57,837 nt of DNA from a virus. The notes under the pieces are model-generated. The model was not told the origin of the DNA. It did no database searches and saw only the letters and a list, made by a program, of their open reading frames with translations. Location: positions 1 through 57,837 of IMG/VR virus record IMGVR_UViG_3300023087_000014; one strand, given 5' to 3'. The first letter of the stretch is position 1; every line of letters begins with the position of its first letter. The position numbers were made by a program, and so were the translations under genes. Below are positions 10,345 through 44,187 of the stretch, piece after piece.

Positions 10345-11034
10345 TTAACTAAAATTATATACATCTACATAGTAATCTGACTCATTAAAAAACGAACCTT
10401 TGATACGCATTTCCATACGATGTTTACTTCTTAGAACATACATTCTTGCTTGTTCCGGGTCTACAATATTTGTAAGTTCCATCATTGTGCTAGATTTATT
10501 AAACACACAACTTTGTTTATCATACGTAGGTTTATGATCGTGATCAACAGCAAACATTACAAGACGTATATCTAAACTTTGTTTGTTTCTCCAAAACACT
10601 GTAACGTAGTATTCATCGTTTACAAATACCTTTTCCATCCAAGGTTCTACTACACCCTGCCATAGGTTGAGACTATCGTGTTCTAAAAAACTTTCATCTA
10701 TTCTTGCACTTGCACTAAGGGTTTGTTTTACACTTGCTTCTCCGCTAGTAGCTGTCCACTTGCCGCCAAGTCCTTTAACATCAAACTTTTTATTTCCCAT
10801 GCGTACATCTTCTGGGTTGTTTCCGTGTCCTACCCATTCACCACCATTCCATTCAGTAGCATCAGCAAGAGCATATTCCCATGCTTCTTTAGCAATCTGG
10901 AACGGGCGTCCTTTAGCTAGGTCTCTTCTACAAGGACCTATTCTTCTTTCAAGTTCTGATCCGAGATTTGTAATAGTTTGTTCTCCTACTACACTAATAA
11001 TTTCTGTTTTATTCAAAGGTCTTAACGAGTACAT
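10345..11034 (-). CDS. Unknown protein with a nuclease-like D...DVKG segment
   Basis: 229 residues from ATG 11034, chosen because GGAGAG lies 4 nt upstream; ATG 11046 is an alternative. The segment DVRMGNKKFDVKG (about residues 75-90) resembles the D-x(n)-(D/E)-x-K active-site line of restriction-type nucleases, but no second motif confirms this. Overlaps the end of the DnaE-like gene by 13 nt, so it is translationally coupled to it. Nuclease function is only a suggestion. Confidence 0.65.
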   Translation of the reverse strand: MYSLRPLNKTEIISVVGEQTITNLGSELERRIGPCRRDLAKGRPFQIAKEAWEYALADATEWNGGEWVGHGNNPEDVRMGNKKFDVKGLGGKWTATSGEASVKQTLSASARIDESFLEHDSLNLWQGVVEPWMEKVFVNDEYYVTVFWRNKQSLDIRLVMFAVDHDHKPTYDKQSCVFNKSSTMMELTNIVDPEQARMYVLRSKHRMEMRIKGSFFNESDYYVDVYNFS

Positions 11035-12665
11035 CTTTCTCTCCATGATGTAAATGTATGCAGTTCTGCATCAGTTGATTCTATATAGTCTGAATTGTTT
11101 TGGTGTTTAACACGACCACTGCCTACTACAATGTCGCCGTCTCTGTAACCAAAAGGTTTTTGTACAGTTATATCTATGTATTCACCGTACCCTATTCCAA
11201 GAGTAATAAAAGTAACCCAGCGTCCGTTACGTCCACGAAACACTCTACCATTTGCTATTACTCCTGCAAATTCTACTCTGTCTAACCATTGCTGGCGTAC
11301 ACCCATACCTTTAGGAAATCCATGTTGCCACCATCCTGGTTTAGTTTCAAGACCACGACGATGTGCTTCACACTGATACACCCAACCTTTGTATGAGCCT
11401 TGACAGTGTTTTAGGTTTGCTCTCCAGAACGCTTCCGGGTTGTGCGCCTTTTGGTATGCGAGTGCCCAGATGAGTCTTCCGAGGTTGACTGCATGAGCTC
11501 TACAAAGGCCGAAACCTGATAGTTCTTGAAGCGCCGCCATAGCTTCTTGCTTACGCGGATTATTGCCGAGCCTTTCAACAAATTCCAAAATCTTTTCATC
11601 ATTCTTTTTTGCAAATGCCCTCCTATACATATCGGCTTCATACATATCTACACCGATGATACTACTTATAATATCTATAGCATCATCTTCAAATACAATG
11701 CTATCTTGTACAGTTTCTTTTGACCAGTCTTGAAACATAGCGGCTTTTTGTCTACCACTCATTGCTACAGGGCGTATCATAGCTGTAGCAAATACACAGT
11801 CCTCCATGCTTGTAGGTTGTATTGCTCTAAACAATCTACGCATAGCAGGGCTTTCTCCTTGGGTTACACCCAGTACATCCCCTCTTGCTAATAAGGCGCT
11901 TGTACGGGCGTCTGTGCGCGGATAAGACGCCAATTCTGTATGCGGATCGATCTCTAATAGTTGCGACAATCCGCGGTTTGCTAGTATGTCAACTTTTAAG
12001 TGTTCTAAGTCTTCTACTTCATATTTGTCTAATAGTATTTGGTTATCTTGTGATATAAGTGATTTAGGTAATTGCCTAGTGAACATTACGATGCCTCCAC
12101 AGTGTTTTGATATTGCTCTTTTCTTTCCTAGTAACTTTCTTTCTATGCGTTTTGCTTCTTTAGAATCAACGCCAACACTTTCATATGTAAAGTTACGTGG
12201 AAGATTACCTGTGGCACCTAAGCGTTTAGCCGCTTCGCGTCTAGCTGACTTTTCTTTATAAGTGACGTAGTTACTGAGTCGTGCAGTTTTGCCTGGCCAT
12301 TTGCGGAATATCCTTTCCATGACTTCCGTCTGTCGATGATGTTCAAAGTCTATATCTACATCTGGCAGGTCGTCCCTCATAGGGTTCATGAACCGTGCCA
12401 CAGGTATGTTCCACTTGATAGGGTCTACATCTGTAATACCCAACAAGTAGCATACTAGGCTAGAACCTGCTGACCCACGTGTCATGTGTGTAAGGTCAGT
12501 AGTTAAGTCTATGATGTCGCAGATTTGTAGGAAGTAATCAGTGAATCGCTGATTGAGAATGAGCTCAAATTCTTCAGCTAAACGATTTTGATAGTCGGGT
12601 CCGGGTGGGACAGGCCTTTTGAATCGATCTAATAGCCTCTGTATGTTTTCTAAATCCGTTGCCAT
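11022..12665 (-). CDS. DnaE-like (Pol III alpha) polymerase lacking the PHP domain
   Basis: 547 residues from ATG 12665 (AGAGG site), although the frame is open further upstream. GSAGSSLVCYLLGITDVDP (about 64-82), RFMNP, PDVDIDF (101-107, catalytic Asp pair) and KVDILANRG (third Asp about 226) match the palm of bacterial DNA polymerase III alpha. GFGLCRAHAVNLGRL near 410 matches the fingers/KSH-type region, and an OB-like segment lies near the end. It is about half the length of cellular DnaE and lacks the N-terminal PHP domain. Its role beside a T4-type replisome is unclear. Confidence 0.85.
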   Translation of the reverse strand: MATDLENIQRLLDRFKRPVPPGPDYQNRLAEEFELILNQRFTDYFLQICDIIDLTTDLTHMTRGSAGSSLVCYLLGITDVDPIKWNIPVARFMNPMRDDLPDVDIDFEHHRQTEVMERIFRKWPGKTARLSNYVTYKEKSARREAAKRLGATGNLPRNFTYESVGVDSKEAKRIERKLLGKKRAISKHCGGIVMFTRQLPKSLISQDNQILLDKYEVEDLEHLKVDILANRGLSQLLEIDPHTELASYPRTDARTSALLARGDVLGVTQGESPAMRRLFRAIQPTSMEDCVFATAMIRPVAMSGRQKAAMFQDWSKETVQDSIVFEDDAIDIISSIIGVDMYEADMYRRAFAKKNDEKILEFVERLGNNPRKQEAMAALQELSGFGLCRAHAVNLGRLIWALAYQKAHNPEAFWRANLKHCQGSYKGWVYQCEAHRRGLETKPGWWQHGFPKGMGVRQQWLDRVEFAGVIANGRVFRGRNGRWVTFITLGIGYGEYIDITVQKPFGYRDGDIVVGSGRVKHQNNSDYIESTDAELHTFTSWRERCTR

Positions 12666-12698
12666 TGTTAGCCTCTTTGTGTTTTCTAAATGCCTAGT

Positions 12699-12717: not shown

Positions 12718-12725
12718 TATTTATT
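12718..12725 (-). promoter_or_regulatory. Possible late promoter of the DnaE-like gene
   Basis: AATAAATA on the minus strand, 52 nt before ATG 12665 and upstream of the tetraloop hairpin. Weaker match than the others. Confidence 0.35.
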
Positions 12726-13014: not shown

Positions 13015-13433
13015 AGCTCATACTCAAAGTTTTGACACTTATCGTACTTTGCTAAAAACTTTGCACCATTGCGAATATGAAAACGTTCAGCCATTTCTGT
13101 AAGAGGACTTAGTGTTACTAGTCTATCACAATGTTCATCTATAGCACTATCTCTTAGTGCATTAATAATTTCTCTACCTGCACCTTTTGTGTAACTCCAT
13201 ACTGTGTATGCAACTAATACCCTGCCATGTGGGTTAGCAAATTCAAACATATCATCTTCTGTTGTAGGCACTTGATCACATAATGCAGTACAAACAATAG
13301 CGGCAATTTCGTTATCTTTTTCTAATACTACAATATTCCTACCATTACCAAATCTTTTGTCATATGGTATATGTGGTCTAACTGGATCTTGTTGAATTAA
13401 ATCTTTTTCATTTACTTTTAACGATCTTAACAC
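13011..13433 (-). CDS. GNAT-like acetyltransferase
   Basis: 140 residues starting with GTG at 13433, overlapping the TAG of gp41 (TAGTG). The pattern IVVLEKDNEIAAIVC, VLVAYTVWSYTKGAGREII (about residues 70-90, the acetyl-CoA loop) and FHIRNGAKFLAKY near the C-terminus is that of a small N-acetyltransferase. The substrate cannot be read from sequence. It belongs to the gp41 transcription unit. Confidence 0.7.
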   Translation of the reverse strand: MLRSLKVNEKDLIQQDPVRPHIPYDKRFGNGRNIVVLEKDNEIAAIVCTALCDQVPTTEDDMFEFANPHGRVLVAYTVWSYTKGAGREIINALRDSAIDEHCDRLVTLSPLTEMAERFHIRNGAKFLAKYDKCQNFEYEL

Positions 13434-14857
13434 TATTCACTCCCTAGATTATTTAAGAACTGTTTTAATTTTGTACTGTCTGCTTCTGCACGTACTTTGC
13501 CTATAGTATCTCCTTGACTGGGATCTGCTTCTGTGTTTTCTTCTAAAGGCATATTTGTTCCGCGTTTGATTTGATCAAACACTGTACTTGATCTTTTCTT
13601 AAATTCTTGATAGTCTTCGTCCTCCGCTAAGTCACGTATACGTAAACTATCAACATCAAATTCTAAATCAATTTTTTGTCCTACACCAGAACTACTACGT
13701 GTTTTCATCAACTGTATTTGATAGCGTCCACGTTCACGCATTGCTCTACTTGTAAAAATACCAATTAAGTTATCTGCTGTATTGATCTTTGAAATACCAC
13801 CACTGATATGACTGTGATCGAATTCAATTTCTTCTACACTAGATCTGTTCAACTGTGATGCTGTAACAAACAAACAGTTTAGTTCCATAGCCAAGTTACG
13901 TAGTTCTTCACTTACATATTTGTCTTTAACAAATAAATTCTCTGCACTAATCTTTGCGGCAATAGGATGCATTAAATCTAAATAGTCTACAAGTAACACA
14001 TCTACTTTTTTACCTGTTTTGATTTCATATTCTTTTAGATAGCTTCTAATATCGTTAGCGTTCTTACCAGTTGGCATATACTTAACTTGAAACGCTCCTG
14101 ACTTCTTGCCAATCATTTTAACTTTCATTTCAACATCATCAATACTTTTGAAAATGTCTCTGCTAGGAATATCAGTAGTCATACTATCTATACGCATACT
14201 AACTAAGTTTTCTGAAAGTTCAAAAGTCAAATACAATACGTTAAGGCCTGCTAGTGCCCAGTTCACTCCCATGTTTGCTAAGAACAAACTCTTACCACTA
14301 CCTGAACCTCCTGCAAAAATATTCAGTTCGCCTCTATTAAACCCACCAAACAGTTTCTTATCTAAACTCTTCCATCCTGTACTTACTTGTCCGTTTTTGT
14401 CTTTGATCGCTTCCAAACGTGCTTTAGGATCTGCCCAATAGTCAGTACCAAGATCTTTTTGCAAACCAATTTGCACAGCCTTCTTAACCAAATCTTCAAC
14501 TGGACCGTAATCACCTTTTTCAAGCAAGTCAGCACTTTTAAGTATAGCCGCTTCAAGTGCTTTGTGTCTACTGAATGTTTCAAACTCTAACAATAACCAA
14601 TCATAATGATTTTCAGCTAAGTCACCTGGATGTTTCAAGTTAGTATCTGTTGCCGCATTCACCATATCAAAGGTTGGCATAGCATTATGTTCTACAACAT
14701 AATCGTTTATAAATTTTGCAACTGGTTGTAATTTTCTATCAAATACACTGTCGTCAAAAACACTTTGACATCTTACAAATGTTTCTGCATCTGTAAGCAT
14801 CATTTCAAGATATACCTTTTGTATATCATAACCATAATCTGTATTTTGTCTTGTCAT
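13433..14857 (-). CDS. gp41: Replicative DNA helicase (T4 gp41, DnaB family)
   Basis: 474 residues from ATG 14857. Walker A GGSGSGKS at 183-190 after GWKSLDKKLFGGFNRGEL, then the LYLTFEL segment, Walker B VDVLLVDYLDLM (about 283-294) and the downstream ASQLNRS segment are those of DnaB/gp41 hexameric helicases. It unwinds DNA ahead of the fork and works with the primase at 16.2-17.2 kb. A sigma70-type promoter places its start codon exactly at +1 (TATAAT, 6 nt, ATG), so the mRNA may be leaderless. Confidence 0.93.
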   Translation of the reverse strand: MTRQNTDYGYDIQKVYLEMMLTDAETFVRCQSVFDDSVFDRKLQPVAKFINDYVVEHNAMPTFDMVNAATDTNLKHPGDLAENHYDWLLLEFETFSRHKALEAAILKSADLLEKGDYGPVEDLVKKAVQIGLQKDLGTDYWADPKARLEAIKDKNGQVSTGWKSLDKKLFGGFNRGELNIFAGGSGSGKSLFLANMGVNWALAGLNVLYLTFELSENLVSMRIDSMTTDIPSRDIFKSIDDVEMKVKMIGKKSGAFQVKYMPTGKNANDIRSYLKEYEIKTGKKVDVLLVDYLDLMHPIAAKISAENLFVKDKYVSEELRNLAMELNCLFVTASQLNRSSVEEIEFDHSHISGGISKINTADNLIGIFTSRAMRERGRYQIQLMKTRSSSGVGQKIDLEFDVDSLRIRDLAEDEDYQEFKKRSSTVFDQIKRGTNMPLEENTEADPSQGDTIGKVRAEADSTKLKQFLNNLGSE

Positions 14858-14863
14858 ATAGTA

Positions 14864-14893
14864 ATTATACTTTCTTATACCACTGATTGTCAA
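14864..14893 (-). promoter_or_regulatory. Sigma70-type promoter of gp41
   Basis: Minus strand TTGACA (14893-14888), 18 bp spacer, TATAAT (14869-14864), then 6 nt and ATG 14857. It lies across the end of the carbamoyltransferase gene. Confidence 0.8.
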
Positions 14894-16128: not shown

Positions 16129-16251
16129 CTACTTATAAATAAATGGATCTCTTTTCTTAAGTTCATCCATACGCTTTTTGAATTCTCTATTTTCTTTCCA
16201 ACGTGTGTAAGGATAGAGAATCAAATCTTTGATCTTTTTTAACCAAACCAT
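16129..16251 (-). CDS. 40-residue basic peptide downstream of primase
   Basis: ATG 16251 lies inside the last codons of the primase gene (out of frame) and the TAG is at 16129-16131. The product is strongly basic, begins MVWLKKIKDLI, has a YPYTRWKE centre and ends in KKRDPFIYK. To my recollection a peptide ending like this recurs beside primase in marine T4-like phages, which together with the coupling supports a real gene. Its charge suggests nucleic-acid or membrane contact. Confidence 0.7.
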   Translation of the reverse strand: MVWLKKIKDLILYPYTRWKENREFKKRMDELKKRDPFIYK

Positions 16252-17234
16252 TTTTTTGCTCCTAGTCGTATTTTCAAAGGAGATTCCTCCGCTGAATTAA
16301 CAATACTGTGTAATGTATATAATCTACCGTATTTAAGTACAGCTTCTCCAATGTCTGTTATATCTGAGCTCCAATTAGGCATACTAACACTCCAACCTAA
16401 ATCAATAGCTTGTTCTATTAGCTTCTTTCCTGCCTTGTCTCTATCAGGTACAACAATTATTTGTTTTTGTAATCTATTTAACAGTAACACCTGTTGATCT
16501 GAAATATCAGAACCGCCTAATGCACAGCCATCAACATGTATAGCATCAATTTGTCCTTCACACAAAATAGCAAATACTTTGTTTGGTCTTTGTTCATCTA
16601 AGCCGTATACAAATCCAGGTTGTACTTCTGTCATATACTTTGGCTTTTTACCTTCAGTTATAGAACGAGCAGTATACCCAACTATGCTTCCTTCATAATA
16701 GAAAGGAATAATTAATCTATCTCTGTATGCTAATTGAGGTGACCAATAGTAATCTGTATCGTCTATACGCAAGTTCCGTTCTAACATATATTGAAAGATA
16801 CGTGCAACACGTTCGTCTAGTTGTCCAGCTTCTGCCCATACATGTTTAGATAACTTTTCAGATCCTTCTGGTAAGTTTACTGTAGTAAATGTAGGTAGTA
16901 GTACTTTGTGTTCTGTTGCTTCAACTCCTTCGTTCTCACGCATAACCTCTAGTGCTAACTTTGTAATAATATCGTCTGGGGCATTGAGCCATTGCATTAG
17001 TTTTTTCATTTTATGAGAAAAAGGTCGACCCGGTTGCCAACTGGCCTTAAACCCACAATTAAAACAATGAAACGATATACCATTGTCGCTTTGGATAACA
17101 CCGCCTCTACTACGTTTGTCTTGTGTGTGACCATTATGATGACAACAGGGTGCGTTGAATGAAGTCCACCCGCTAGGCGTTGTTTTCCGCTTAGGAGGTA
17201 AAAATGTCAGAACTGTTTCTACGACTACACTCAT
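16239..17234 (-). CDS. gp61: DNA primase (T4 gp61-like)
   Basis: 331 residues. An N-terminal zinc-binding block (CCHHNGH near residue 30 and CFNCGF near 55) is followed by a helical linker and a TOPRIM domain with LCEGQIDAI (about 224-232, catalytic Glu) and DRDKAG (about 268-273). Typical of T4/cyanophage primases that make RNA primers for lagging-strand synthesis with gp41. The start codon lies 6 nt after a TATAAT box, predicting a leaderless mRNA. Confidence 0.93.
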   Translation of the reverse strand: MSVVVETVLTFLPPKRKTTPSGWTSFNAPCCHHNGHTQDKRSRGGVIQSDNGISFHCFNCGFKASWQPGRPFSHKMKKLMQWLNAPDDIITKLALEVMRENEGVEATEHKVLLPTFTTVNLPEGSEKLSKHVWAEAGQLDERVARIFQYMLERNLRIDDTDYYWSPQLAYRDRLIIPFYYEGSIVGYTARSITEGKKPKYMTEVQPGFVYGLDEQRPNKVFAILCEGQIDAIHVDGCALGGSDISDQQVLLLNRLQKQIIVVPDRDKAGKKLIEQAIDLGWSVSMPNWSSDITDIGEAVLKYGRLYTLHSIVNSAEESPLKIRLGAKKWFG

Positions 17235-17269: not shown

Positions 17270-18037
17270 CTAGTTTCTTACCAATATCTTTGAAATTTTG
17301 CTTGCAGGGTCTGCTGTAGTTCTAAACCTTATATAACTATGCACTCCTACAAAATTTACTGGTACAGGAGCAGTTTCGTTATTTAATGTTGCTGTAGCAA
17401 CAGTAGTCCACGCAGTATCATTATCAGGTTGGTTATCTAGAGTTGCTTGTACTTCTACATCACCTATAAAGCTATCAGAATAAATTGCTACTGTATGAAC
17501 AGCTTCATTACCGTTGATTCCTGGTTGTGCATCTACTTGCTCGCTTACCCATACACTTGCATTAGGTTGTGTTTCTGTAAATTGTGTTACACTTTTACTT
17601 GCTTGTGCTCCTGGAAATGCTACGCTAGATATATGTATAGTGCCGTTGTTTTCAAAGTGAGGTTGTGAATACGATAATGTTTTTTGTCCGTCTGTTTCTT
17701 CTAAATATACATTATATTTTAAGAATTGGTCTTTTAAATTTAGCAAATCATTTTCAGAAATGTTTACTATTGCAACACCAGTAGCTGTACCTGCTGTTGC
17801 TGTTTTTTCTAATATAAGATTATTACTTTCATCAAATGCAACAAATTTAGCTACCTTTGTGCCTAAAGCTACAGGCTTTTGATCTGCATTTAAGAATCTA
17901 AATTCTACATTATTATCTATTCCTCTATAAACTTGTAATTGTCTACTATACACTGGTCTGTACTCCGTTACGAACTCTATGTCATTCAACACGAGTGTTG
18001 TTCTATTATTTACTAAATATCTAGGTATTAACTGCAT
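17270..18037 (-). CDS. Virion-like beta-rich protein (late gene)
   Basis: 255 residues, beta-rich with Thr, Val and Asn. The N-terminal part (YSRQLQVYRGIDNNVEFRF, about 30-50) and the C-terminal segment (VHTVAIYSDSFIGDVEVQATLD...FVGVHSYIRFR) read as two immunoglobulin-like or carbohydrate-binding-like sandwiches, typical of baseplate or decoration proteins of marine T4-like phages. A late promoter GATAAATA lies 4 nt before ATG. No close T4 counterpart is recognised. Confidence 0.65.
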   Translation of the reverse strand: MQLIPRYLVNNRTTLVLNDIEFVTEYRPVYSRQLQVYRGIDNNVEFRFLNADQKPVALGTKVAKFVAFDESNNLILEKTATAGTATGVAIVNISENDLLNLKDQFLKYNVYLEETDGQKTLSYSQPHFENNGTIHISSVAFPGAQASKSVTQFTETQPNASVWVSEQVDAQPGINGNEAVHTVAIYSDSFIGDVEVQATLDNQPDNDTAWTTVATATLNNETAPVPVNFVGVHSYIRFRTTADPASKISKILVRN

Positions 18038-18041
18038 ACAA

Positions 18042-18049
18042 TATTTATC
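18042..18049 (-). promoter_or_regulatory. T4-type late promoter, leaderless position
   Basis: GATAAATA, then TTGT and ATG 18037. Confidence 0.75.
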
Positions 18050-18056
18050 GAGAATT

Positions 18057-18425
18057 ATGTTATTAAAAGATATAGAAAAGAACTTTCCATTTATTAGTGT
18101 CGTACAATACGGCGGAAACGAATATGTTGGAATTATAATAAATCAAGATCAGTATGTAACATCTATGTATGTATACACTGATTTACGTTCTAGCAGAGAA
18201 CGAGAAGAGTTTTTAGACCTTGGAGGAGTATGGTGGTGGGAGTCAAATAGACTAATACCAATTAATATATTTCTACGTAAGGATATGGAAAAATTTAAAT
18301 ATGCTATTCAAACAATGAATAGCAAAGATGTGAAAGTAACAATAGGACCAATTGTAAACTTATTGAATATGACTGTCAAAAGAATAAAAAGAAAAAATGT
18401 TCAATTAGTTAAAAAGCCTAAATAG
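18057..18425 (+). CDS. Conserved marine T4-like phage protein, function unknown
   Basis: 122 residues from ATG 18057; an in-frame ATG at 17979 would overlap the divergent gene and its promoter, so it is rejected. The core YGGNEYVGII...LDLGGVWWWESNRLIPINIFL (about 18-75) is, from memory, well conserved among hypothetical proteins of marine T4-like phages. The last 20 residues are strongly basic. It is one of only three plus-strand genes within the long minus-strand block, and its 3' end overlaps the mini DnaE-like gene by 8 nt. Confidence 0.75.
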   Translation: MLLKDIEKNFPFISVVQYGGNEYVGIIINQDQYVTSMYVYTDLRSSREREEFLDLGGVWWWESNRLIPINIFLRKDMEKFKYAIQTMNSKDVKVTIGPIVNLLNMTVKRIKRKNVQLVKKPK

Positions 18426-18975
18426 CTTGTTCACAAATTAAATTCATATGCACAACACAAGCCATTGCATATGATACAGCATGTGCCTTCTTAAAAAAGT
18501 ATTCACCGTTGTTTGGTTTTATCCAAACTTCTTTTTCTATCGTTTGCCAATCCTTGTTCGCAAGATGTCTTTTTGCCGGACGAATGATTGCTAGTGTTGC
18601 GGCTAGTTGTGGTATCGAGATAGGCTTCAATTGTTTTAAGAGACTGTCGTGTCCGCTTAGATGAAATACCTGATCTACGAATTCTTTGTGCTCCAATAGT
18701 TCCCATAGTGGTTCCTTTTTCATTAGGTTTGCCAAATGTGTCTCATCTTTCACATCTTTGTATATAGACACATTAAGAAAATCTAATTTGAAGTATCCTC
18801 GTTCTTCTGCTGTTTCATAATCTATAGTAGATAACATATCGACAGGATTGTGTGGAATTTCAGTTGCATAAATTCCTGTATTATGTTTTTTGCCTGTGTC
18901 AAGTTTTGCCACACGATGTTTTAGTTTATCTAAAATAATACTACGATCTGCAAAGTCAATATCGATATCAGGCAT
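18418..18975 (-). CDS. Mini DnaE-like protein (Pol III alpha palm fragment)
   Basis: 185 residues that begin exactly at the catalytic motif, MPDIDIDFADR (residues 1-11), continue with KLDFLNVSIY (about 63-72, third Asp) and end with FKKAHAVSYAMACVVH (about 160-176), the counterpart of the DnaE K-S-H-A-x-x-Y fingers motif. RPAKRHL near 130 is also retained. PHP, thumb and OB parts are absent. From memory, a similar short gene occurs in cyanophages. It may be a regulatory or structural relic rather than a polymerase. Overlaps the gene upstream by 8 nt. Confidence 0.78.
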   Translation of the reverse strand: MPDIDIDFADRSIILDKLKHRVAKLDTGKKHNTGIYATEIPHNPVDMLSTIDYETAEERGYFKLDFLNVSIYKDVKDETHLANLMKKEPLWELLEHKEFVDQVFHLSGHDSLLKQLKPISIPQLAATLAIIRPAKRHLANKDWQTIEKEVWIKPNNGEYFFKKAHAVSYAMACVVHMNLICEQAI

Positions 18976-26280: not shown

Positions 26281-27738
26281 CTAGTTCCATTCTACTTTTT
26301 CTATTGTGAATGGGTACTGCGCCTCTTTGTAAAACTTTTTACGTTGAGTAAGGTGCCGCTTCGCAAACTTACAAGTGCTTGTAAGATCCCATATTTGAAC
26401 GAAGTCTTTGTCCTTTGCCTTTCTGACGCCTCTGCCTATTGACTGGATTACTCTTACAAAAGATTTACCAGGTTCAATGAGGACAAGATTAAAAATGCGA
26501 GGAATATTAATGCCAACAGCGGCGACACCATACGTAGCAATGACCACGTGATTTGTTCCTTCGTTAATTTCGTCATACGCTTCCTTTCTATCTTTTAATT
26601 TAACATCGCCTTTTACAAATGTACTGCCTGGGATAAGTTCTTGAAGTTTTTCGCCTGCTGATATTCTATCTACAAGTATTAGTGTATTGCCTGATTGTTT
26701 TACTTTGTTTAATAATGATGCTATGTATTTTATTCTATCTTCATTTGTTACAAGATATTTTAATTCTGATTGGTAGTCTCTGTGTGCTACTGTATCTAAT
26801 AGCTGTACTACATTTACATGACATTGTGATAGCACACCTTTGTCTTGTAGTTCTTTTGCACTCACTTGTCCTATAACAGGCCCAATGCTTGCATGTATAC
26901 TTTCAAATTCAAAACGTTCTTTAGGTATAGTACCAGTTAGTCCCCAACGTATTGGAGCATTTTTTAGATTCCGTGTAAGTAATGTTTTTAAAACTTCTGC
27001 TTTTGCTTGATGCACTTCGTCGATAATTACTGTGCTTACACCATCTAGAAACTCGGCAAGACCTAATACTGCACTGCCATCTTTAAACTTTTTATCTAAA
27101 ATATTTAAACTTTGCCATGTACAAATAGTATGAGTCTTGCCTAGTTCTTTTCTGTCGCCAAAATATACGCCCACATCAAGTCCACAGTTTATATAATCTT
27201 CCTCAGTTTGTGTTACTAAACTTTTATTAGGAACAATTACTAGACTACGTCCATATGGTTCTGTGATCTTACTCAGTGTAGCTGTTATAATAGTCTTGCC
27301 CGCGCCTGTAGCCACTTCTTGTAATGATTGTGGATTTTCCAAGAAGTTGTTTATTACCTCAACTTGATAATCCCGCAAACGTATTGGTTCGCCTTCGGCA
27401 GGGTGACCTTTTGGCCAGGTTTTTGTACCCCAGAAATCTTCACTAATAATTTGAAAATCTAATTTGATTGTATGTCGTCTGTCTTCAATATCTACTATTT
27501 GTACATTATTTTTTGCCAGTACATCAGTAATAACATTAAGATGATTAACGTAGCCGGTGCCGCCAATACCAAAGAAAGCAACCTTACCGTCCCATCTTCC
27601 CAACTTATATTGTGGCATGTATCTAGCGTATGGCACTTCAAACTTAAGAGCGTTAGAGAGCTTCCTGCGTACATCTACTTCAAGTCCTTCTATCTTTATG
27701 TTCACTTCGTCTTCGATAATTAATTTACAACTTGCCAT
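26281..27738 (-). CDS. uvsW: UvsW ATP-dependent DNA/RNA helicase
   Basis: 485 residues. An N-terminal domain of about 100 residues (with YKLGRWDGKVAFF) precedes a superfamily 2 core: RLRDYQ (Q-like motif), ATGAGKT (about 147-153), VIIDEVHQ (about 236-243), GLTGT (about 266-270) and, in the second RecA domain, VIATYGVAAVGINIPR and QSIGRGVRK. In T4, UvsW drives branch migration and removes R-loops, switching origin-dependent to recombination-dependent replication. Its start overlaps the stop of the upstream gene by 1 nt. Confidence 0.94.
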   Translation of the reverse strand: MASCKLIIEDEVNIKIEGLEVDVRRKLSNALKFEVPYARYMPQYKLGRWDGKVAFFGIGGTGYVNHLNVITDVLAKNNVQIVDIEDRRHTIKLDFQIISEDFWGTKTWPKGHPAEGEPIRLRDYQVEVINNFLENPQSLQEVATGAGKTIITATLSKITEPYGRSLVIVPNKSLVTQTEEDYINCGLDVGVYFGDRKELGKTHTICTWQSLNILDKKFKDGSAVLGLAEFLDGVSTVIIDEVHQAKAEVLKTLLTRNLKNAPIRWGLTGTIPKERFEFESIHASIGPVIGQVSAKELQDKGVLSQCHVNVVQLLDTVAHRDYQSELKYLVTNEDRIKYIASLLNKVKQSGNTLILVDRISAGEKLQELIPGSTFVKGDVKLKDRKEAYDEINEGTNHVVIATYGVAAVGINIPRIFNLVLIEPGKSFVRVIQSIGRGVRKAKDKDFVQIWDLTSTCKFAKRHLTQRKKFYKEAQYPFTIEKVEWN

Positions 27739-28961
27739 TACATCTCTTCTATCATCAAATGTCTGCGCGATCTACTGTGACGGAAAGTTCCGTACTGTGA
27801 AGGCACAGTGTCGTAATGTATTTCTAAATCAGATTCGTTAGTAATAGAATCAATCTTATGACTGTTATACTGACTTTGTAAATACAAACACGACTTAAAC
27901 CGCCAATCGCTTGACATCAACGGCTTTGGATATTTTTTATTACTACTAATATACACTATTTCTGTATCTTTTGCAACCGAATTATTTAAACCATTCTTTT
28001 TAATATAATCATTAAAATTTTTGTTATCTTTATTATCAAGCCTAAACATAACACTAATTTTATTTCTGTCTACAAAATTTCTGGTAATGTTATTGCAAGT
28101 AACTAATTCATCATATGCATCATTACCTAACACTATTAGTATAGGGAACCTATTTAATTCTTTTATACTATAAAAAACATTATCAAGTGTCCATTTGTTT
28201 TTGCTTACAAAAACATTTGGATTTTTTCTTTTGATTATGTTTTGTGATAGAGGTGTAAACTGTTTGATACTATCTAATACGTTAGGATCGAAATAATCTA
28301 AACCATATAGAATTGATCTATCTCTAAACAACGCAAGATTGTCTTGTGTAAGTTCACCTACGTGATCTGTAATAGATTCTATTAATTTATCTGATACATT
28401 TTTAAACTGTAGGTTGTATATTCCAGGCACATATAAACTAGGATTATTTTTTATTTCATCAATTTTATTAAAACTATCTACAAGCTCTTCATCAATTTCA
28501 TATTCTTTATTTCTAAATTTCTCTACTACTGAATAAATTGTGCCTTCATTAATTTTAAAAAAATGTTCATGCGTACCTTTAGTATGTGAATATTCTTTCC
28601 TGTGTTTGAAAGCAATTTGTTCAATGTCTATGATAGTCTTTTTATTGAAGGGAAATCTAATTTTGATCTTATCATCTTCGATTACAACATATTTACTACG
28701 ATCAATTTCTCGCAGAGGTTGTCGTAAAACTTTAATTAGTGAAGGTAAATCATCGACACCCTGATCAATAAATTGCTGTTGATAATATAATAATTTCTTC
28801 TGACAAACGTCTAGTTGCCTATCAGTAAGAGCTTTACCTCTAAACACTTGTTTTGCAATACTATATAAGATTGTTTGATCAACAGACTCGATTTCGATCT
28901 TATAAGGTAAAGTAAATCCTGCTAATGCCTCAAGGCAATCTTCTATATTTTTTAATTCCAT
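27738..28961 (-). CDS. Conserved protein preceding uvsW, function unknown
   Basis: 407 residues, first gene of the uvsW transcription unit. Lys/Asn/Asp-rich with several helical segments; the middle contains FPFNKKTIIDIEQIAFKHRKEY and the last third a beta-alpha pattern (FPILIVLGNDAYDELV). No Walker motif is visible. The -10 box lies 6 nt before ATG, so the mRNA should be leaderless. A recombination-linked role is suggested only by its operon. Confidence 0.72.
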   Translation of the reverse strand: MELKNIEDCLEALAGFTLPYKIEIESVDQTILYSIAKQVFRGKALTDRQLDVCQKKLLYYQQQFIDQGVDDLPSLIKVLRQPLREIDRSKYVVIEDDKIKIRFPFNKKTIIDIEQIAFKHRKEYSHTKGTHEHFFKINEGTIYSVVEKFRNKEYEIDEELVDSFNKIDEIKNNPSLYVPGIYNLQFKNVSDKLIESITDHVGELTQDNLALFRDRSILYGLDYFDPNVLDSIKQFTPLSQNIIKRKNPNVFVSKNKWTLDNVFYSIKELNRFPILIVLGNDAYDELVTCNNITRNFVDRNKISVMFRLDNKDNKNFNDYIKKNGLNNSVAKDTEIVYISSNKKYPKPLMSSDWRFKSCLYLQSQYNSHKIDSITNESDLEIHYDTVPSQYGTFRHSRSRRHLMIEEM

Positions 28962-28996: not shown

Positions 28997-29827
28997 GAGG
29001 TTAAGTGGTAAACCTTGAGAAATTTCTTCAACAGTAAATTCTGTCCATGCATAGTCATTTAACCATTGTTGTCTATCAGGTGTCAAAGGATTTTCTATAT
29101 CGTGTAAGAAATCAATATCATTTGCGGCATCATATGCTAAACTATGCGGACTTACAAATGCAGGCACACCTTCAAGTATACTGTGTATACCTGGATTACT
29201 ACTCCAACTTATTGTTGCCCAAGCATTATTAAATCCCATATCAAAATCATCATATGTACCATTAATATGCTTAGGTTCTTGCCGAGAAACATTCTTGTAT
29301 TGGTGTTCTATAGCTTCTAATCTACACCTTGGATGTGGACGGAATACAATAGGACGATCAGTATGCTGTTGTATTTTATCTATGGTTTGCATTACCCAAG
29401 TACTCATTCTTGGCATGTCTTGCCATTGCAAACTTCTTTCATGTTGTCCGCAAATTAGTATATGATTTCCTTGTTCTCGCCATGGCTTTAAAAGTAACCC
29501 AAGATTATCAGCGCGATCAGAGTTATTATTAACGGGACCAAAATAAGCATCACGATTAATTCCATTAAGAGCTACCTTCCAAGTTGATCCACGTCTAATA
29601 CCTCCGACTTCGAGAACAATACAGGCTCTATTTTCTTTTTGACACCTTTCCCAGATAGTACGGTTTGGACCCATACGACCGTTAAAAAGTACACTCCAAA
29701 TAACATCAATACCATCATTACTATTAGTGACAACATCATGACCGAGAGCCAAAGCACCATTACGAAAGGCGTCAAAAACAGGTTTAGAATTTTGTGCGCC
29801 ATACTGAGTCCATAAGTTAAATTTCAT
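28976..29827 (-). CDS. KpsC/KpsS-like capsule glycosyltransferase, paralog A
   Basis: 283 residues. IVFRPHPRCR (about 158-167), a WATISWSSNPGIHSILEGVPAFVSP stretch (about 205-230) and the ending WLNDYAWTEFTVEEISQGLPLNLL are shared with the three paralogs at 31, 32 and 36 kb. The R-x-HP pattern and the E-G-[IV]-P-x-F loop resemble capsule-synthesis proteins of the KpsC/KpsS type, GT-B-like enzymes that transfer Kdo. This copy retains HP. Its 5' end overlaps the next gene by 11 nt. Confidence 0.72.
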   Translation of the reverse strand: MKFNLWTQYGAQNSKPVFDAFRNGALALGHDVVTNSNDGIDVIWSVLFNGRMGPNRTIWERCQKENRACIVLEVGGIRRGSTWKVALNGINRDAYFGPVNNNSDRADNLGLLLKPWREQGNHILICGQHERSLQWQDMPRMSTWVMQTIDKIQQHTDRPIVFRPHPRCRLEAIEHQYKNVSRQEPKHINGTYDDFDMGFNNAWATISWSSNPGIHSILEGVPAFVSPHSLAYDAANDIDFLHDIENPLTPDRQQWLNDYAWTEFTVEEISQGLPLNLLTSKLN

Positions 29828-30662
29828 TCCAATATGCTTCTGATCTTTCTGTCATTAAATCTTTTTTCTTACTATGACCTGTATACTTACGATCACCTTT
29901 CATATGATCAATATATCTACCTAGTTCAGTGTTAATGAGTGGATGACCTCCACCGCCTGTCTTTGCAGTTTTTACATATATTGATGCGCTATAATCTAAT
30001 GCCCTTGGATTATAATTTTTATGTTTCATTAAGATATGACCAAATACATAACTATCATGCCATTCTTCTAATGTAAATATTCCAGTCTCTGCATTATTAT
30101 AATAATCTTTAAATTCTTTTATGAAGTTTACACACTGTTTGTCGTTTTTATTCAAACCATAAAATCCACATTCGGGCCAAGTTTGAGATCCTGCTCCTCT
30201 GCCTACATAAGTGATCCAACTTTCTTTTGGTAGTAATTTTGCAAAGTTTTCATGACTCCAAGCACTATGAACGTATGTATCTCCGTCAACCCATACTATC
30301 CAATCAGCTGGTTCGTTTTCGTAAGCGTCAAATACTGCATAAACTTTATGTGAAAATCTAATAGCGTCCCATTTAAATTCTTTATGCCAATCTCTTGGAC
30401 GTCTGCGTTTTATTTCAGGCGGAGGTGTACCAGTCGCTTTTGGTTCATTTTTCCAGCGTTCAATAAATGCTTTCTTTTCTGGTAAAGCATCTGCATTTAA
30501 AATTTGTATATTTGCTCCTTCAGGGATTGTAGGGACACAATCCTCTGCATAGACTAGCAGTTTAATTTTTGGATCTACATTTTTTGCCCAACTGTCTATT
30601 AATCTCTGGCCGTATGTAAAAAGTCCTTCGTTATTAAATGTTGTTAAAGCTACAATATTCAT
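29817..30662 (-). CDS. GT-A type glycosyltransferase (DxD), paralog 1
   Basis: 281 residues. WIVWVDGDTYVH (about 119-130) carries the D-x-D metal motif, preceded by FKWDAIRFSHKVYAVFDAY, and WPECGFYGLN (about 157-166) and WHDSYVFGHIL (about 200-210) follow. The same three blocks occur in the gene at 36785-37573, so the two are paralogs. Likely transfers a sugar from a nucleotide donor onto a phage-made glycan. Operonic: 1 nt separates it from the upstream KpsS-like gene. Confidence 0.78.
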   Translation of the reverse strand: MNIVALTTFNNEGLFTYGQRLIDSWAKNVDPKIKLLVYAEDCVPTIPEGANIQILNADALPEKKAFIERWKNEPKATGTPPPEIKRRRPRDWHKEFKWDAIRFSHKVYAVFDAYENEPADWIVWVDGDTYVHSAWSHENFAKLLPKESWITYVGRGAGSQTWPECGFYGLNKNDKQCVNFIKEFKDYYNNAETGIFTLEEWHDSYVFGHILMKHKNYNPRALDYSASIYVKTAKTGGGGHPLINTELGRYIDHMKGDRKYTGHSKKKDLMTERSEAYWNEI

Positions 30663-30663
30663 G

Positions 30664-31605
30664 TTATTCCTTTACTGCCCATTTACGCATGTGACGCCAT
30701 GCTTCGCCTGCGGCTACTTCGTCAAGAGTCCAGTGGCATTGTGCAAGTTTATGTAGCCAACCTTCTCTTTCAAATTCTTTTGGTTCGTTAATATATTTCA
30801 TATCACTATGTACAACATCTTTAGCCTGGCTTCTTTCTACATCTGTTTGGAATGTAGGTATGCCTTCGATAACACTTGCAACGGCAGGACTACTATTATG
30901 GTTTACTACTGCACAAGCGGTTGCAAAGTCAGTGAAGATATTTTCACTATTGCTTATTCTTAAATTTCCAATTTTATATCTTGCAAGATGTCTTATATGA
31001 TTTCTTACATTTTTATCTCCAGGATGAAATCTAACTACAATTTGTTTGTCAGTATAATGTCTTACTTGAGTAACTGTTTGTACAATCCAACTTACAACAG
31101 GCTCTGAATCCATACTCCAACCACCGTCTCTTTGGCAACATAAAAGTATTGTACCACCGTCGGGTTTTCGCCAAGGTTTAACTTTTATGTTCAAATCTTT
31201 ACTAAGTTTTTCCCACCTGTAAGGGTTAGGATTATCATAACAATATTCACCAGTAGTTGGAAATACTCCATCAAAGCTATACCGTAAATATGTTTTTGTA
31301 TTACCTGGATCAAAACTTAAAAACAAATTACTATCTACAATTACACATCTTTTATTTCTAAGGATTTGATTTTCGTATACTTGTTTTCTTAACCGTAAGT
31401 GTCTTGTGTTTTTACTGTTTGCATGAACAAATCCTTGTATTACTGCTACATCAGTATTCATAGGATGCCAGCCCGTTACTACTGCACCTCTGTCTCCACA
31501 TGCATTTACACCTTTAATAAAATCATTTATAATTCTAGGTTTTTCAGGATTGGTATTTCCTGGAGGAATACCCATTAAGTATGAAGCAACAGTTAATCCA
31601 TTCAT
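30664..31605 (-). CDS. KpsC/KpsS-like capsule glycosyltransferase, paralog B
   Basis: 313 residues. ILLCCQRDGGWSM (about 156-168), IVVRFHPGDK (about 197-206), CAVVNHNSSPAVASVIEGIPTF (about 236-257) and WLHKLAQCHWTLDEVAAGEAW near the end define the same family as paralogs A, C and D. HP and the acceptor loop Glu are retained, so this copy looks catalytically intact. Its ATG overlaps the stop of the upstream gene (ATGA). Probable role: adding Kdo or a related sugar to surface polysaccharide or lipid. Confidence 0.74.
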   Translation of the reverse strand: MNGLTVASYLMGIPPGNTNPEKPRIINDFIKGVNACGDRGAVVTGWHPMNTDVAVIQGFVHANSKNTRHLRLRKQVYENQILRNKRCVIVDSNLFLSFDPGNTKTYLRYSFDGVFPTTGEYCYDNPNPYRWEKLSKDLNIKVKPWRKPDGGTILLCCQRDGGWSMDSEPVVSWIVQTVTQVRHYTDKQIVVRFHPGDKNVRNHIRHLARYKIGNLRISNSENIFTDFATACAVVNHNSSPAVASVIEGIPTFQTDVERSQAKDVVHSDMKYINEPKEFEREGWLHKLAQCHWTLDEVAAGEAWRHMRKWAVKE

Positions 31606-32435
31606 CGTATGTCGTGCTCCTGTATAATTCTGTATGCTTCTCCATTTACAAGTTCATCAGTTGTAAACTGACAGTAACATAACCAGTGTAACCAATTTTG
31701 CACAAGTTGCGGGTCGCTATACTTGGGTGTTTCTAATTTACTAAGGTCTTTTTCACATAGCATATCAGCCGCACCTGGAGCAGTTGTAAATGCTGGTACA
31801 CCATACATAATAGCTTCAGTTGCCGCAATACTGTTGTATGTTACTACAGCAAAAATTTTATCTTCATCAAACTGATTAAAGATGCTTCCGTCACCTATTC
31901 TTTGATGACGTAGTCCTTTATCTCTAACAATTATTTCTTTGTCAGTATATTTTTTTATTAGTTCTGTTGTTTCTTTTACCCAGTCATCTCTGTTGATTCC
32001 ATAAAATTTACAAGGCTTTTCGGAAGGTGTTACTAGTAAAATATTCCTTCCTTGATTTTTTGATTTAGTCCAGCCTCTAAATGCGTAGCTAAAATCTCTA
32101 GCTCTACCAGACAGTTCTCTCCATCTATCATTTGGCAAGTTTTTAAAGTTACTGTGTTGCATACCATTTTTTACTACTCTATGAAATACTTTTCTTTTTT
32201 GTCTATTACCTAAATATCCAGTATCAATATAAAAATAATCTCGGCCTGTTCTTTCACATTCAGCAACAATTTTTCTACCAGTCATACCTCTAAAACTTAC
32301 TGGTAAATTGGTATCATATTCTTTCAGTTGTTTCCAATCGTGTATGTAAGTTGCACCAATGCCCTTGGTCCAACATTTTAATATTTGATCATTTTCATCT
32401 ATTGCTAGATGATGTTTTACAGATCCATCATGCAT
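31602..32435 (-). CDS. KpsC/KpsS-like protein, paralog C (HP motif lost)
   Basis: 277 residues from ATG 32435, which has CAGGAA 5 nt upstream; ATG 32453 gives 283. LLVTPSEKP, AVVTYNSIAATEAIMYGVPAFTT (about 205-227) and WLHWLCYCQFTTDELVNGEAY match the paralogs. Where A, B and D have R-x-HP this copy reads IIVRDKGLRHQR, so the usual donor-binding HP is missing. The acceptor loop also has MYG instead of E-G. It may be inactive, or may have changed donor specificity. Confidence 0.68.
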   Translation of the reverse strand: MHDGSVKHHLAIDENDQILKCWTKGIGATYIHDWKQLKEYDTNLPVSFRGMTGRKIVAECERTGRDYFYIDTGYLGNRQKRKVFHRVVKNGMQHSNFKNLPNDRWRELSGRARDFSYAFRGWTKSKNQGRNILLVTPSEKPCKFYGINRDDWVKETTELIKKYTDKEIIVRDKGLRHQRIGDGSIFNQFDEDKIFAVVTYNSIAATEAIMYGVPAFTTAPGAADMLCEKDLSKLETPKYSDPQLVQNWLHWLCYCQFTTDELVNGEAYRIIQEHDIR

Positions 32436-33091
32436 TTTAATTCCTGTTTCCATAATTCATTGTATTCACAGTTTCGGTAGTTTTCAAACCAAGGACCACC
32501 TTCTGTATAATGTATTAGTTTTGGTGTCTCTACATCGTCATAAACACCAACAAGATAATTCCAAGTATGATCCAATTCTCCAATTTCTTCATCTTTTAAC
32601 CAACTAAATCTATGCAAGTAGGCACCATTAATTTCTTTATCATTAACAAGATCCATAGTAAGTTTTGCATTACTAGGATGACCACAGTTAAACAACATCA
32701 CACTTGACCAATTTTTACGTGGATAGATAGTTTGTTTTTGTCCATCCATTTTTGTACCTTCTTTAACTTTGTAGTCATGATGTACACACATTACAGCATA
32801 CTTGTCATCTGCTTGATCAAACAGTTCTTTTATATCTGTTGTTAAGATCATATCACAATCCATAAACACAGCCCAACCTTCAAAATTTACAAGTTCAGGT
32901 ATAAGAAACCGTGTAAACGTAAATTCAGTTGATGCTAGTTTATCTATTGGACGAGTATACCAACCTGCATCTCTTAATTCCTGTTGTTTTAACGGACGCA
33001 CATCTGCATCGGGACTTCTTGTTTCGATACTGTGCTTGCACACTTGATATGCAATATCTTCTCTAGTATCATAGCCTACAAATATTTTCAT
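32417..33091 (-). CDS. GT8-like glycosyltransferase
   Basis: 224 residues. IFVGYDTREDIAYQVC (3-18), STEFTFTRFLIPEL (about 54-67), VFMDCDMILTTDI (about 73-85, D-x-D), SSVMLFNCGHP (about 130-140) and LDHTWNYLVGVYDD...KLIHYTEGGPW near the end follow the order seen in GT8 enzymes and related stress-type transferases. It transfers a sugar from a UDP-type donor with metal help. Its ATG overlaps the preceding gene's stop (ATGA), and its own end overlaps paralog C. Confidence 0.8.
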   Translation of the reverse strand: MKIFVGYDTREDIAYQVCKHSIETRSPDADVRPLKQQELRDAGWYTRPIDKLASTEFTFTRFLIPELVNFEGWAVFMDCDMILTTDIKELFDQADDKYAVMCVHHDYKVKEGTKMDGQKQTIYPRKNWSSVMLFNCGHPSNAKLTMDLVNDKEINGAYLHRFSWLKDEEIGELDHTWNYLVGVYDDVETPKLIHYTEGGPWFENYRNCEYNELWKQELKCMMDL

Positions 33092-33858
33092 TTTCTTTCT
33101 ATATCCTCCTCAACACAATTTTTTCCATATTGTATTTCAACTAATTTCAATGGTTCGTTATGTTCATTAACAAGTTGATGCCATGTGTTTACAGGTATGT
33201 GTAAACTTCTGTGTTGTTCATAAACTCCAAGTAAATCAACGTCGGAACTACTGTCTAGAGTATATACTGTTGCAGTTCCTTCAGCTACAAACCAATGTTC
33301 GCTACGTTCTGCATGTCTTTGCATTGATAGTCTTTTACCCGGAGGTACTGTTAATTCTTTTACTTTAGTATGTCTGTCATATTCATGTATCACTCTATAA
33401 TACCCCCAACTACGTTCTGTTTTAGGCGCTTTCCATTCATCTAATATCCAACTACTAGAATTTATTTTATTTTCTCCACCTACACCAAACGCAAATTCAA
33501 CTTTAGGCAATTCTCCGTATGTTTCATATTCTGGTGTAGTGGTGTTTGTTCTATCTCCACCGTTAGCAAAAACAATTTTAACATCTCCATGAGTTGCCAT
33601 TGTTTTATAGATTGCACCACATGCACTGCCGTCACTGTCATCAAAACTTATGACTCTGTCAACAATACTTAGTTGTTCAATAACATTTGCTCTGTCCTTA
33701 AAAGACATAAAAGGACGTCCTTTTTTATTTGTAAGCCAATCGTCTGAATTTAAACCTACATGTAATTCATCACCTAAAGATTTAGCCGCCTTAAAATATT
33801 CAATATGGCCTGAATGTAAAGGATCAAATCCTCCTGTTACTAATACAATAGTTTTCAT
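33088..33858 (-). CDS. Cytidylyltransferase-cupin fusion for nucleotide-sugar synthesis
   Basis: 256 residues. Residues 1-145 are an HxGH nucleotidyltransferase: VTGGFDPLHSGHIEYF (about 7-22), VGLNSDDWLTNKKGRPFM and NSSSWIL (about 132-138). Residues 150-256 are a cupin: PPGKRLSMQRHAERSEHWFVAEGTATV (about 173-200) and IPVNTWHQLVN, like the C-terminal part of mannose-phosphate isomerase/guanylyltransferase proteins. The fusion suggests one protein that activates a sugar-phosphate and also isomerises or binds it. AAGGAC site. Confidence 0.82.
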   Translation of the reverse strand: MKTIVLVTGGFDPLHSGHIEYFKAAKSLGDELHVGLNSDDWLTNKKGRPFMSFKDRANVIEQLSIVDRVISFDDSDGSACGAIYKTMATHGDVKIVFANGGDRTNTTTPEYETYGELPKVEFAFGVGGENKINSSSWILDEWKAPKTERSWGYYRVIHEYDRHTKVKELTVPPGKRLSMQRHAERSEHWFVAEGTATVYTLDSSSDVDLLGVYEQHRSLHIPVNTWHQLVNEHNEPLKLVEIQYGKNCVEEDIERK

Positions 33859-38048: not shown

Positions 38049-38285
38049 CTAATTCCAGTAATCCTCATCTTCATCATCATAAACATCTTCTGCATCTTCA
38101 TCTAAGTAATAGTTAATAGCATTATCTAATACTTCGTCATTACCTAAAGAATCATAAAATGTTTTGTCCTCAACACCATAGTCTGCCATAAGATCAACAA
38201 ATCTTTCTGCGGCAGTTTCTATGTGTTTTTTGTCAAGATACTCTTTAAAGGTATTCCAAATTTCTTGAATTTGTTCTTCAGTCAT
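38049..38285 (-). CDS. Small acidic protein between uvsX and uvsY
   Basis: 78 residues. The C-terminus is very acidic (DEDAEDVYDDEDEDYWN), and the first 50 residues look helical. It overlaps the end of uvsX by 8 nt and ends 2 nt before uvsY. An acidic tail suggests contact with basic or single-strand-binding proteins such as UvsY or gp32, but no function is known. Confidence 0.75.
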   Translation of the reverse strand: MTEEQIQEIWNTFKEYLDKKHIETAAERFVDLMADYGVEDKTFYDSLGNDEVLDNAINYYLDEDAEDVYDDEDEDYWN

Positions 38286-39357
38286 TTAATACAGGCTCCT
38301 CGTTATGGTTTTCTATGACATCGTCGTCTGCGGTATTTACCTCTGACTCTAGATTTTTATAATCATTCATTACCATATCGAGTAATTCACCCGTCCAATT
38401 TTTTCTGTACTCTTTGTGTTCTGTACCAGATGAATCTATATACTTTAACCTATTTCCATCTTTAACAATCATACCTTGTTTTTCAAAAAGTTCAACAAGT
38501 CCGCTGTAAGGATTCATTCCTGTTTCATAAGGAATCTTTACTTGTACGCCTTCGAAAGGTTTTGCGTAACGTGTTTTCATTACTTTACAACCAGCACGAA
38601 TACCACGTACTTCGCTGATCTTGTTGCCATCTTCATCTTCTTTTAGTTTTAGTTTTTTCATTGCTACAACAATCGAAGATGCATAGATAAATCCTTGACC
38701 GCCTGAGATCTTGTCATCTGGGTCAAACATATCTTGCGATGCATACGTATGGTTAGTACATACAAGTCCTACGTTATGTGAACCAATCATGTTAACTGTG
38801 TTACGAACAAGTGCAGTTAGTGCCTTAGGCTTACGGCCCATATCACCTTTCATATCACCCTTGTTAAACTGATCAACATCTGTAGGTGTTAGTAACATAC
38901 CTAAACTATCAATAACAAACAACACCTTAGGTCGTTCTTCTTCGTCCATTGCTTTGTAGTCTGCCATAAACACACTAATAGTTTTAGCAACGTCATCGAT
39001 CATTGACATGTTAAGTTTAAGTAGTTTATCTTCGCTTGTATCTACATCAAGTGCATGTAACCACGCTTCGTCAAGAGCGTTTTCACTATCAATTAGAACT
39101 ACAAAGATACCTTGCTCTTGTGCGGCTTTCACAATGTTACCTGCACAAATATAACTTTTACCTGCACCACTTTCGCCTGCAAATACAGTTACTTTACCTA
39201 GTGGAACACCTTTATGGAAGTCTCCTGATACTAGATAGTTGAGTGCATAGTTGCCTGTTGAAATCCAATCAGTTGGATCGTTAAATCCTGCACTCATACC
39301 TGAAATAGATTTCGTTAATGATGTCCTAAATTTACTAGGATCAAATGCTTTTGCCAT
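38278..39357 (-). CDS. uvsX: Recombinase UvsX (RecA family)
   Basis: 359 residues with AAGGAG before ATG. Walker A GESGAGKS (61-68), LFVIDSLGML (about 147-156, Walker B), a CTNHTYASQDMFDPDDKISGGQG loop (about 202-224) and the acidic C-terminus are those of T4-type UvsX. It forms filaments on single-stranded DNA and catalyses strand exchange in recombination-dependent replication. It lies directly downstream of gp32, separated by a hairpin that may reduce read-through. Confidence 0.95.
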   Translation of the reverse strand: MAKAFDPSKFRTSLTKSISGMSAGFNDPTDWISTGNYALNYLVSGDFHKGVPLGKVTVFAGESGAGKSYICAGNIVKAAQEQGIFVVLIDSENALDEAWLHALDVDTSEDKLLKLNMSMIDDVAKTISVFMADYKAMDEEERPKVLFVIDSLGMLLTPTDVDQFNKGDMKGDMGRKPKALTALVRNTVNMIGSHNVGLVCTNHTYASQDMFDPDDKISGGQGFIYASSIVVAMKKLKLKEDEDGNKISEVRGIRAGCKVMKTRYAKPFEGVQVKIPYETGMNPYSGLVELFEKQGMIVKDGNRLKYIDSSGTEHKEYRKNWTGELLDMVMNDYKNLESEVNTADDDVIENHNEEPVLND

Positions 39358-40406: not shown

Positions 40407-40472
40407 ATTATATGCCTCCTATTTGTTGCCTTTAGCTTTGTGCCTAGTTGTTTTGTACAGCACATATTATGT

Positions 40473-40501
40473 ACTATACGATATTAATTAGCAAAAGTCA
40501 A
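40473..40501 (-). promoter_or_regulatory. Early sigma70-type promoter of gp32
   Basis: Minus strand TTGACT (40501-40496), 17 bp spacer, TATAGT (40478-40473), with GAGG before the -35 box as in the plus-strand early family. Leader of about 65 nt. Confidence 0.85.
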
Positions 40502-42582: not shown

Positions 42583-42590
42583 TATTTATC
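42583..42590 (-). promoter_or_regulatory. T4-type late promoter, leaderless position
   Basis: GATAAATA on the minus strand, then CTAAC and ATG 42577; it overlaps the last codons of gp17. Confidence 0.8.
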
Positions 42591-44169: not shown

Positions 44170-44173
44170 GTTG

Positions 44174-44181
44174 TATTTACT
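44174..44181 (-). promoter_or_regulatory. T4-type late promoter, leaderless position
   Basis: AGTAAATA, then CAAC and ATG 44169. A variant motif shared with the gene at 52390 (GGTAAATA, N4). Confidence 0.6.
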
Positions 44182-44187
44182 CAAAAG

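Follow-up and report, generated by a model that had tools for sequence, protein, structure and literature searches.

A one-piece minimal DnaE-type polymerase, probably accessory to gp43, in a marine clade of jumbo T4-type phages

The closest described systems are found in jumbo phages, in which a minimal Pol III α is split into an NTP-binding chain and a metal/template-binding chain encoded by distant genes (Iyer et al., 2021; PMC7824862). The split enzyme accompanies the family-B polymerase gp43, and the same study raised, without testing it, the sharing of a replication fork by family-B and family-C enzymes (Iyer et al., 2021). The viral DNA analyzed here (IMG/VR record IMGVR_UViG_3300023087_000014; the whole stretch of 57,837 nt is called the window) encodes the C-terminal half of this known split enzyme (C-half) and a separate, one-piece DnaE-type enzyme. 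The split form is already known; the novelty lies in finding, in this clade, a minimal form made in one piece that coexists with the split C-half. The literature searched, which took in few subscription journals, contains no description of the one-piece minimal form. With a single 547-residue chain, the one-piece DnaE is a natural minimal bacterial replicase in a phage group that otherwise uses a family-B enzyme. The reading preferred here, with a probability of about 0.6, is that the one-piece DnaE is catalytically competent and most likely acts as an accessory polymerase beside gp43. The features of the window that bear on this reading are the following:

11022-12665, minus strand: one-piece minimal Pol III α (DnaE-type, 547 aa) with palm, short thumb, fingers and OB domain, assigned by PF07733, PF17657, residue mapping, an AF2 model and a fold match to 5lew (Z 22.6)
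12691-12695, minus strand: conserved AGGCA motif between the hairpin and the start codon
12699-12712, minus strand: 5-bp hairpin with a GAAA loop, CGTTG-GAAA-CAACG, assessed by stem statistics in the leaders of relatives
12718-12723, minus strand: TAAATA, a putative promoter element that resembles the T4 late -10 core (TATAAATA) and that almost all relatives share upstream of the gene
13433-14893, minus strand: gp41-type replicative helicase (DnaB_C; Pfam/PHROG)
16239-17234, minus strand: DnaG/gp61-type primase (Toprim; Pfam/PHROG)
18418-18975, minus strand: C-terminal half of a split minimal Pol III α, 185 aa, beginning MPDIDIDFADR (phrog_11778, E 5e-58)
26281-27738, minus strand: UvsW-type helicase
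38278-39357, minus strand: UvsX recombinase
39405-40406, minus strand: gp32-type single-strand binding protein
42589-44184, minus strand: gp17-type large terminase, a T4-type packaging marker

The one-piece gene is an open reading frame with no internal stop. Its start is the ATG at 12665, which is immediately preceded by AGAGG, resembling a ribosome-binding site, and at which the alignments of relatives begin; the mechanical ORF is longer and reaches an ATG at 12809. Pfam recognizes the Pol III α catalytic domain (PF07733, E 1.3e-43) and the fingers (PF17657, E 1.7e-15), and the best family among PHROGs is the full-length DnaE profile, phrog_405. In a PDB sequence search the best matches are DnaE enzymes (E 6e-35) and PolC is far weaker, so the protein is of the DnaE type. 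Alignment with E. coli DnaE equates the aspartate triad of the PDxDxDF and KxD motifs, D401/D403/D555, with D102/D104/D226; the GS triphosphate-binding loop, G363/S364, with G64/S65; and the Arg/Lys/His dNTP contacts R362, R390, R396, K553, R709/R710 and H760 with R63, R91, R97, K224, R348/R349 and H391. The AF2 model (pLDDT 75, pTM 0.78, with low confidence for fingers residues 298-328) matches DnaE/PolC structures at Z 13-22, well above the rows that follow, and the 16 best rows are all DnaE/PolC; the best match, 5lew (Z 22.6, 333 aligned residues, rmsd 4.2), shares the palm/thumb/fingers fold, and residues 460-538 at the C-terminus of the model match SSB/PriB OB folds (Z about 9). Taken together, sequence, residues and fold make it near certain that the 547-aa protein is a family-C polymerase core.

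The same comparison shows what the core has shed. The PHP domain has no counterpart: E. coli residues up to ~280 are missing, Pfam finds no PHP domain in the one-piece DnaE, and PF02811 is absent across the whole window. Supply of PHP by a separate gene was considered and rejected, the one match, in the relative's contig G002, being weak and sub-threshold. E. coli residues 829-943, the HhH/clamp-binding region with the internal β motif, likewise have no counterpart, and part of the thumb and most of the C-terminal (τ) domain are also gone. With an OB domain but with neither PHP nor the HhH/clamp-binding region, the protein does not qualify as a complete bacterial DnaE. The first-pass annotation had described a DnaE-like polymerase of about half size in a T4-type phage, lacking PHP but keeping the three catalytic aspartates, the GS motif and the fingers, and had suggested a structure prediction; this description is borne out throughout, the chain being less than half the length of E. 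coli DnaE and its model matching Pol III α at Z 22.

The phage falls within a marine clade of T4-type jumbo myoviruses, and T4-type genes in the window include gp17, gp18, gp32, UvsX, UvsW, gp41 and primase. Gene order is identical in every long contig of the clade: gp6, gp20-23, gp18, gp17, gp32, UvsX, UvsW, mini-DnaE (the C-half), primase, gp41. Joining the gene orders of two relatives' contigs, G013 and G014, suggests a genome size of ~346 kb, similar to RaK2-like jumbo phages. IMG/VR holds 234 relatives of the one-piece DnaE, with gp41 adjacent in the loci checked. Of the rows on the gp41 tree, 55 have the one-piece DnaE and 9 lack it; this label switches three times along the tree, and the simplest interpretation is about three losses of DnaE at the locus.

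Two other genes of the window stand out. Beside UvsW, a 407-aa protein (27738-28961, minus strand) is found in all relatives at mostly 32-40% identity, vs at least 80% for its neighbours; it has no Pfam match and a weak PHROG match. The tail sheath protein (49042-52281) is 1079 aa, much longer than that of T4, and in G013 the gp18 sheath gene (29794-33145) reads as two overlapping ORFs, possibly through a frameshift or an assembly error.

The first-pass annotation offered a choice between a phage with two polymerase types and a DnaE that replaces or assists gp43, and proposed a search for gp43 elsewhere in the genome. The family-B profile PF00136 matches neither the window nor any of the 11 longest DnaE-bearing records (longest 144 kb), while the positive controls (T4, HTVC008M, LR756508 and seven jumbo phages) all matched. 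Neither the window nor G001, G002 or G003 gives a hit to a profile made from ten gp43 proteins, BLAST against gp43 marker proteins finds no gp43 in G026, a 155-kb DnaE-bearing contig, and gp43 and the one-piece DnaE never occur together on a contig of the clade. The search did find gp43 in relatives G013, G014 and G027. The gp43 gene of relatives maps ~115-150 kb downstream of gp41, at a distance of ~80-105 kb from gp6; the DnaE-bearing contigs (up to 155 kb) all stop short of this segment. Its absence from them was consequently rejected as proof of replacement, since the synteny map puts the gp43 segment outside all of them.

Replacement of gp43 by the one-piece DnaE, as the sole replicase of an otherwise T4-type replisome in the lineages carrying it, is unlikely. 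It would explain why no DnaE-bearing contig encodes gp43 and why the gp43-bearing G013 and G027, in which the DnaE locus is covered, lack the one-piece DnaE; the latter pattern is expected under such a swap and counts against an accessory role. Besides the uncovered gp43 segment, several observations oppose replacement. Divergence of gp43 in G013, G014 and G027 tracks that of six core proteins (0.854/0.917/0.85 vs 0.834/0.891/0.837), so that gp43 is vertically inherited in the clade, and gp43-bearing G014, whose DnaE locus lies just past the contig end, groups with DnaE-bearing G003 and G004 with support 100/100. LR756508, the nearest complete genome with a one-piece homolog, encodes both polymerases. 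Finally, a sole replicase is expected to have the clamp-binding and proofreading parts that the one-piece DnaE lacks. Vertical gp43, the grouping of G014, the presence of both enzymes in LR756508 and about three losses of DnaE together make an accessory second polymerase likelier than replacement. Coexistence of the one-piece DnaE and gp43 in this genome is thus the better-supported but unproven option: of the choices offered earlier, two polymerase types are favored, short of proof.

Species-level nucleotide links between gp43-bearing and DnaE-bearing contigs were also sought and rejected: the best match is 89% over 406 bases, most are at 80-85%, and none amounts to a link. In LR756508.1 the gp43-like PF00136 matches (260623-262308 and 266583-266900) fall in two ORFs of 1022 and 625 aa, ~4 kb apart, which suggests that its family-B polymerase gene is split or interrupted.

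The second DnaE-like gene of the window, at 18418-18975, was overlooked in the first-pass annotation. It has the features of the C-terminal half of the split enzyme, which is defined by two chains with a break between the FLN and PDIDID motifs, a definition that the one-piece DnaE does not fit: the C-half keeps all three catalytic aspartates and has no GS loop or thumb, and its model shows a modest match to DnaE palm and fingers (Z 8). RaK2, GAP32, Paride, Atu_ph07 and other jumbo phages have homologs that are 36-53% identical; the gene adjoins primase and gp41 in nearly all jumbo phages examined, DxD and KxD are kept throughout, and IMG/VR contains at least 553 relatives. G013 and G014 encode the N-half (phrog_11127) close to gp44, and its end (GRGSSVASY...WREFLR) just precedes the point at which the C-half starts. 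Origin of the one-piece DnaE by recent fusion of the split halves was rejected, its best family being the full-length DnaE profile phrog_405 and its profile comparison with the C-half being weak. Convergent with the C-half gene is a small ORF (17979-18425, plus strand), 55-70% conserved in relatives and also present at this position in RaK2-like phages.

Both DnaE-like genes lie in one replication block, and the one-piece DnaE has the GS loop that the C-half, for all its three aspartates, lacks; the two proteins could therefore form one composite Pol III α, with the one-piece DnaE standing in, e.g., for the N-half, which is not seen in DnaE-bearing contigs. We consider this composite improbable: the active site of the one-piece DnaE is complete in itself, its profile comparison with the C-half is weak, and the place of the N-half in relatives, near gp44, lies beyond the region that the DnaE-bearing contigs cover. 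A single genome of this marine jumbo lineage may hold three parallel polymerase systems, gp43, the two-chain split Pol III α and the one-piece minimal Pol III α, with families B and C at one fork; this extension is tentative, with odds a little below even.

Large deletions relative to DnaE and repeated loss within the clade could also point to a catalytically dead or regulatory remnant, or to a DNA binder that carries out no synthesis. Against this, D102, D104, D226, G64, S65, R91, R97, K224, R348, R349 and H391 do not vary among 39 marine relatives spanning 75-90% identity, and the LR756508 homolog, at 37-39% identity, keeps all active-site residues checked except R710, which is Asn there. 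A dead protein is therefore very improbable, and polymerase activity of the one-piece DnaE is likely. Recent capture of a host dnaE fragment, or a binning artefact, can be dismissed in spite of family C being the bacterial replicase family: the gene occupies the same place in dozens of independent contigs from many metagenomes, bacterial genomes gave a single weak match, and the nearest match is in a 484-kb phage (LR756508).

The leader of the gene contains the GAAA-tetraloop hairpin noted in the first-pass annotation, which lies 5 nt after TAAATA. Among 46 unique TAAATA..AGGC leader segments, 31 of at least 13 nt and 15 shorter, a stem of at least 5 bp forms in 28 of the 31 longer segments, vs 3.6% of shuffles. 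The leaders contain 18 different stem-loop sequences (e.g., TGCACAATGTAGTGCA, TGTGCAATGTAGCACA and TGCGCAATGTAGCGCA), with a loop that is not always GAAA; the changes are compensatory and the hairpin is a real RNA element. It does not occur in the 15 shorter segments and is thus limited to one sublineage. The proposal that the hairpin may regulate translation is weakened accordingly: a general role in regulating the one-piece DnaE is excluded, and a stem at the mRNA 5′ end, judging by the spacing from TAAATA, is the simplest reading and no worse a fit than a translational switch. As a genome-wide signal, TAAATA-AGGCA does not rise above shuffles. The gp32 leaders (window 40407-40491, minus strand; G001, G003, G004, G014 and G027) carry a conserved long inverted repeat (e.g., TGTGTAGTAT..GTGCTACACA) and repeated AGGCA, preceded by TAAATA in most relatives; regulation shared between the gp32 and DnaE leaders, or autoregulation by gp32, is possible.

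As an accessory polymerase, the one-piece DnaE would extend primers through the two-metal active site of DnaE (D102, D104 and D226) and the G64-S65 triphosphate-binding loop. Lacking PHP, the proofreading scaffold, it would act with no proofreading domain of its own, and the loss of the HhH/clamp-binding region, with its internal β-clamp motif, and of the τ-binding tail would deprive it of the usual hold on the host clamp. Access to DNA may instead be provided by the OB domain and by the T4-type replisome, i.e., gp32, primase and the gp41 helicase, its conserved neighbour. Beside the family-B replicase gp43, it might serve in lagging-strand synthesis, gap filling or recombination-dependent synthesis, and would be non-essential enough for the clade to have lost it on several occasions. 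If active, the enzyme shows what a Pol III α core is capable of once the PHP, clamp-binding and τ domains are gone, and makes the sharing of one replication fork by family-B and family-C polymerases testable.

E. coli Pol III α shares the palm, fingers, OB domain and all active-site residues with the one-piece DnaE; unlike it, the bacterial enzyme has PHP, the HhH/clamp-binding region and the C-terminal domain, and is more than twice as long. The DnaE-like polymerases of phrog_405, from Streptomyces, Staphylococcus and other phages, are also phage-borne family-C enzymes (26-32% identity), but the members examined are longer (931 aa in Ss1, 1159 aa in Zemlya) and their phages are not T4-type. 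The same one-piece architecture is present in a protein of the uncultured 484-kb phage LR756508.1 (47382-49016; 37-39% identity). LR756508.1 differs from the window in having gp43-like PF00136 matches and nothing that clearly matches the split C-half; other window proteins have no BLAST match in the 31.6 kb fetched around the homolog, which as a query finds no relatives in IMG/VR. The split Pol III α of group 2.2 jumbo phages (RaK2, GAP32, CBB and Atu_ph07; Iyer et al., 2021; PMC7824862) is likewise a family-C core without PHP, HhH and τ domains, and its hosts, like the present phage, are T4-type jumbo phages with gp41, UvsW and primase; the window has the C-half as well, and RaK2/GAP32-type phages have no homolog of the one-piece DnaE. 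By contrast to the split form, two short chains encoded by distant genes, the one-piece DnaE is a single 547-aa chain encoded next to gp41, in which the GS loop, the aspartate triad, the thumb and the fingers are united with an added OB domain.
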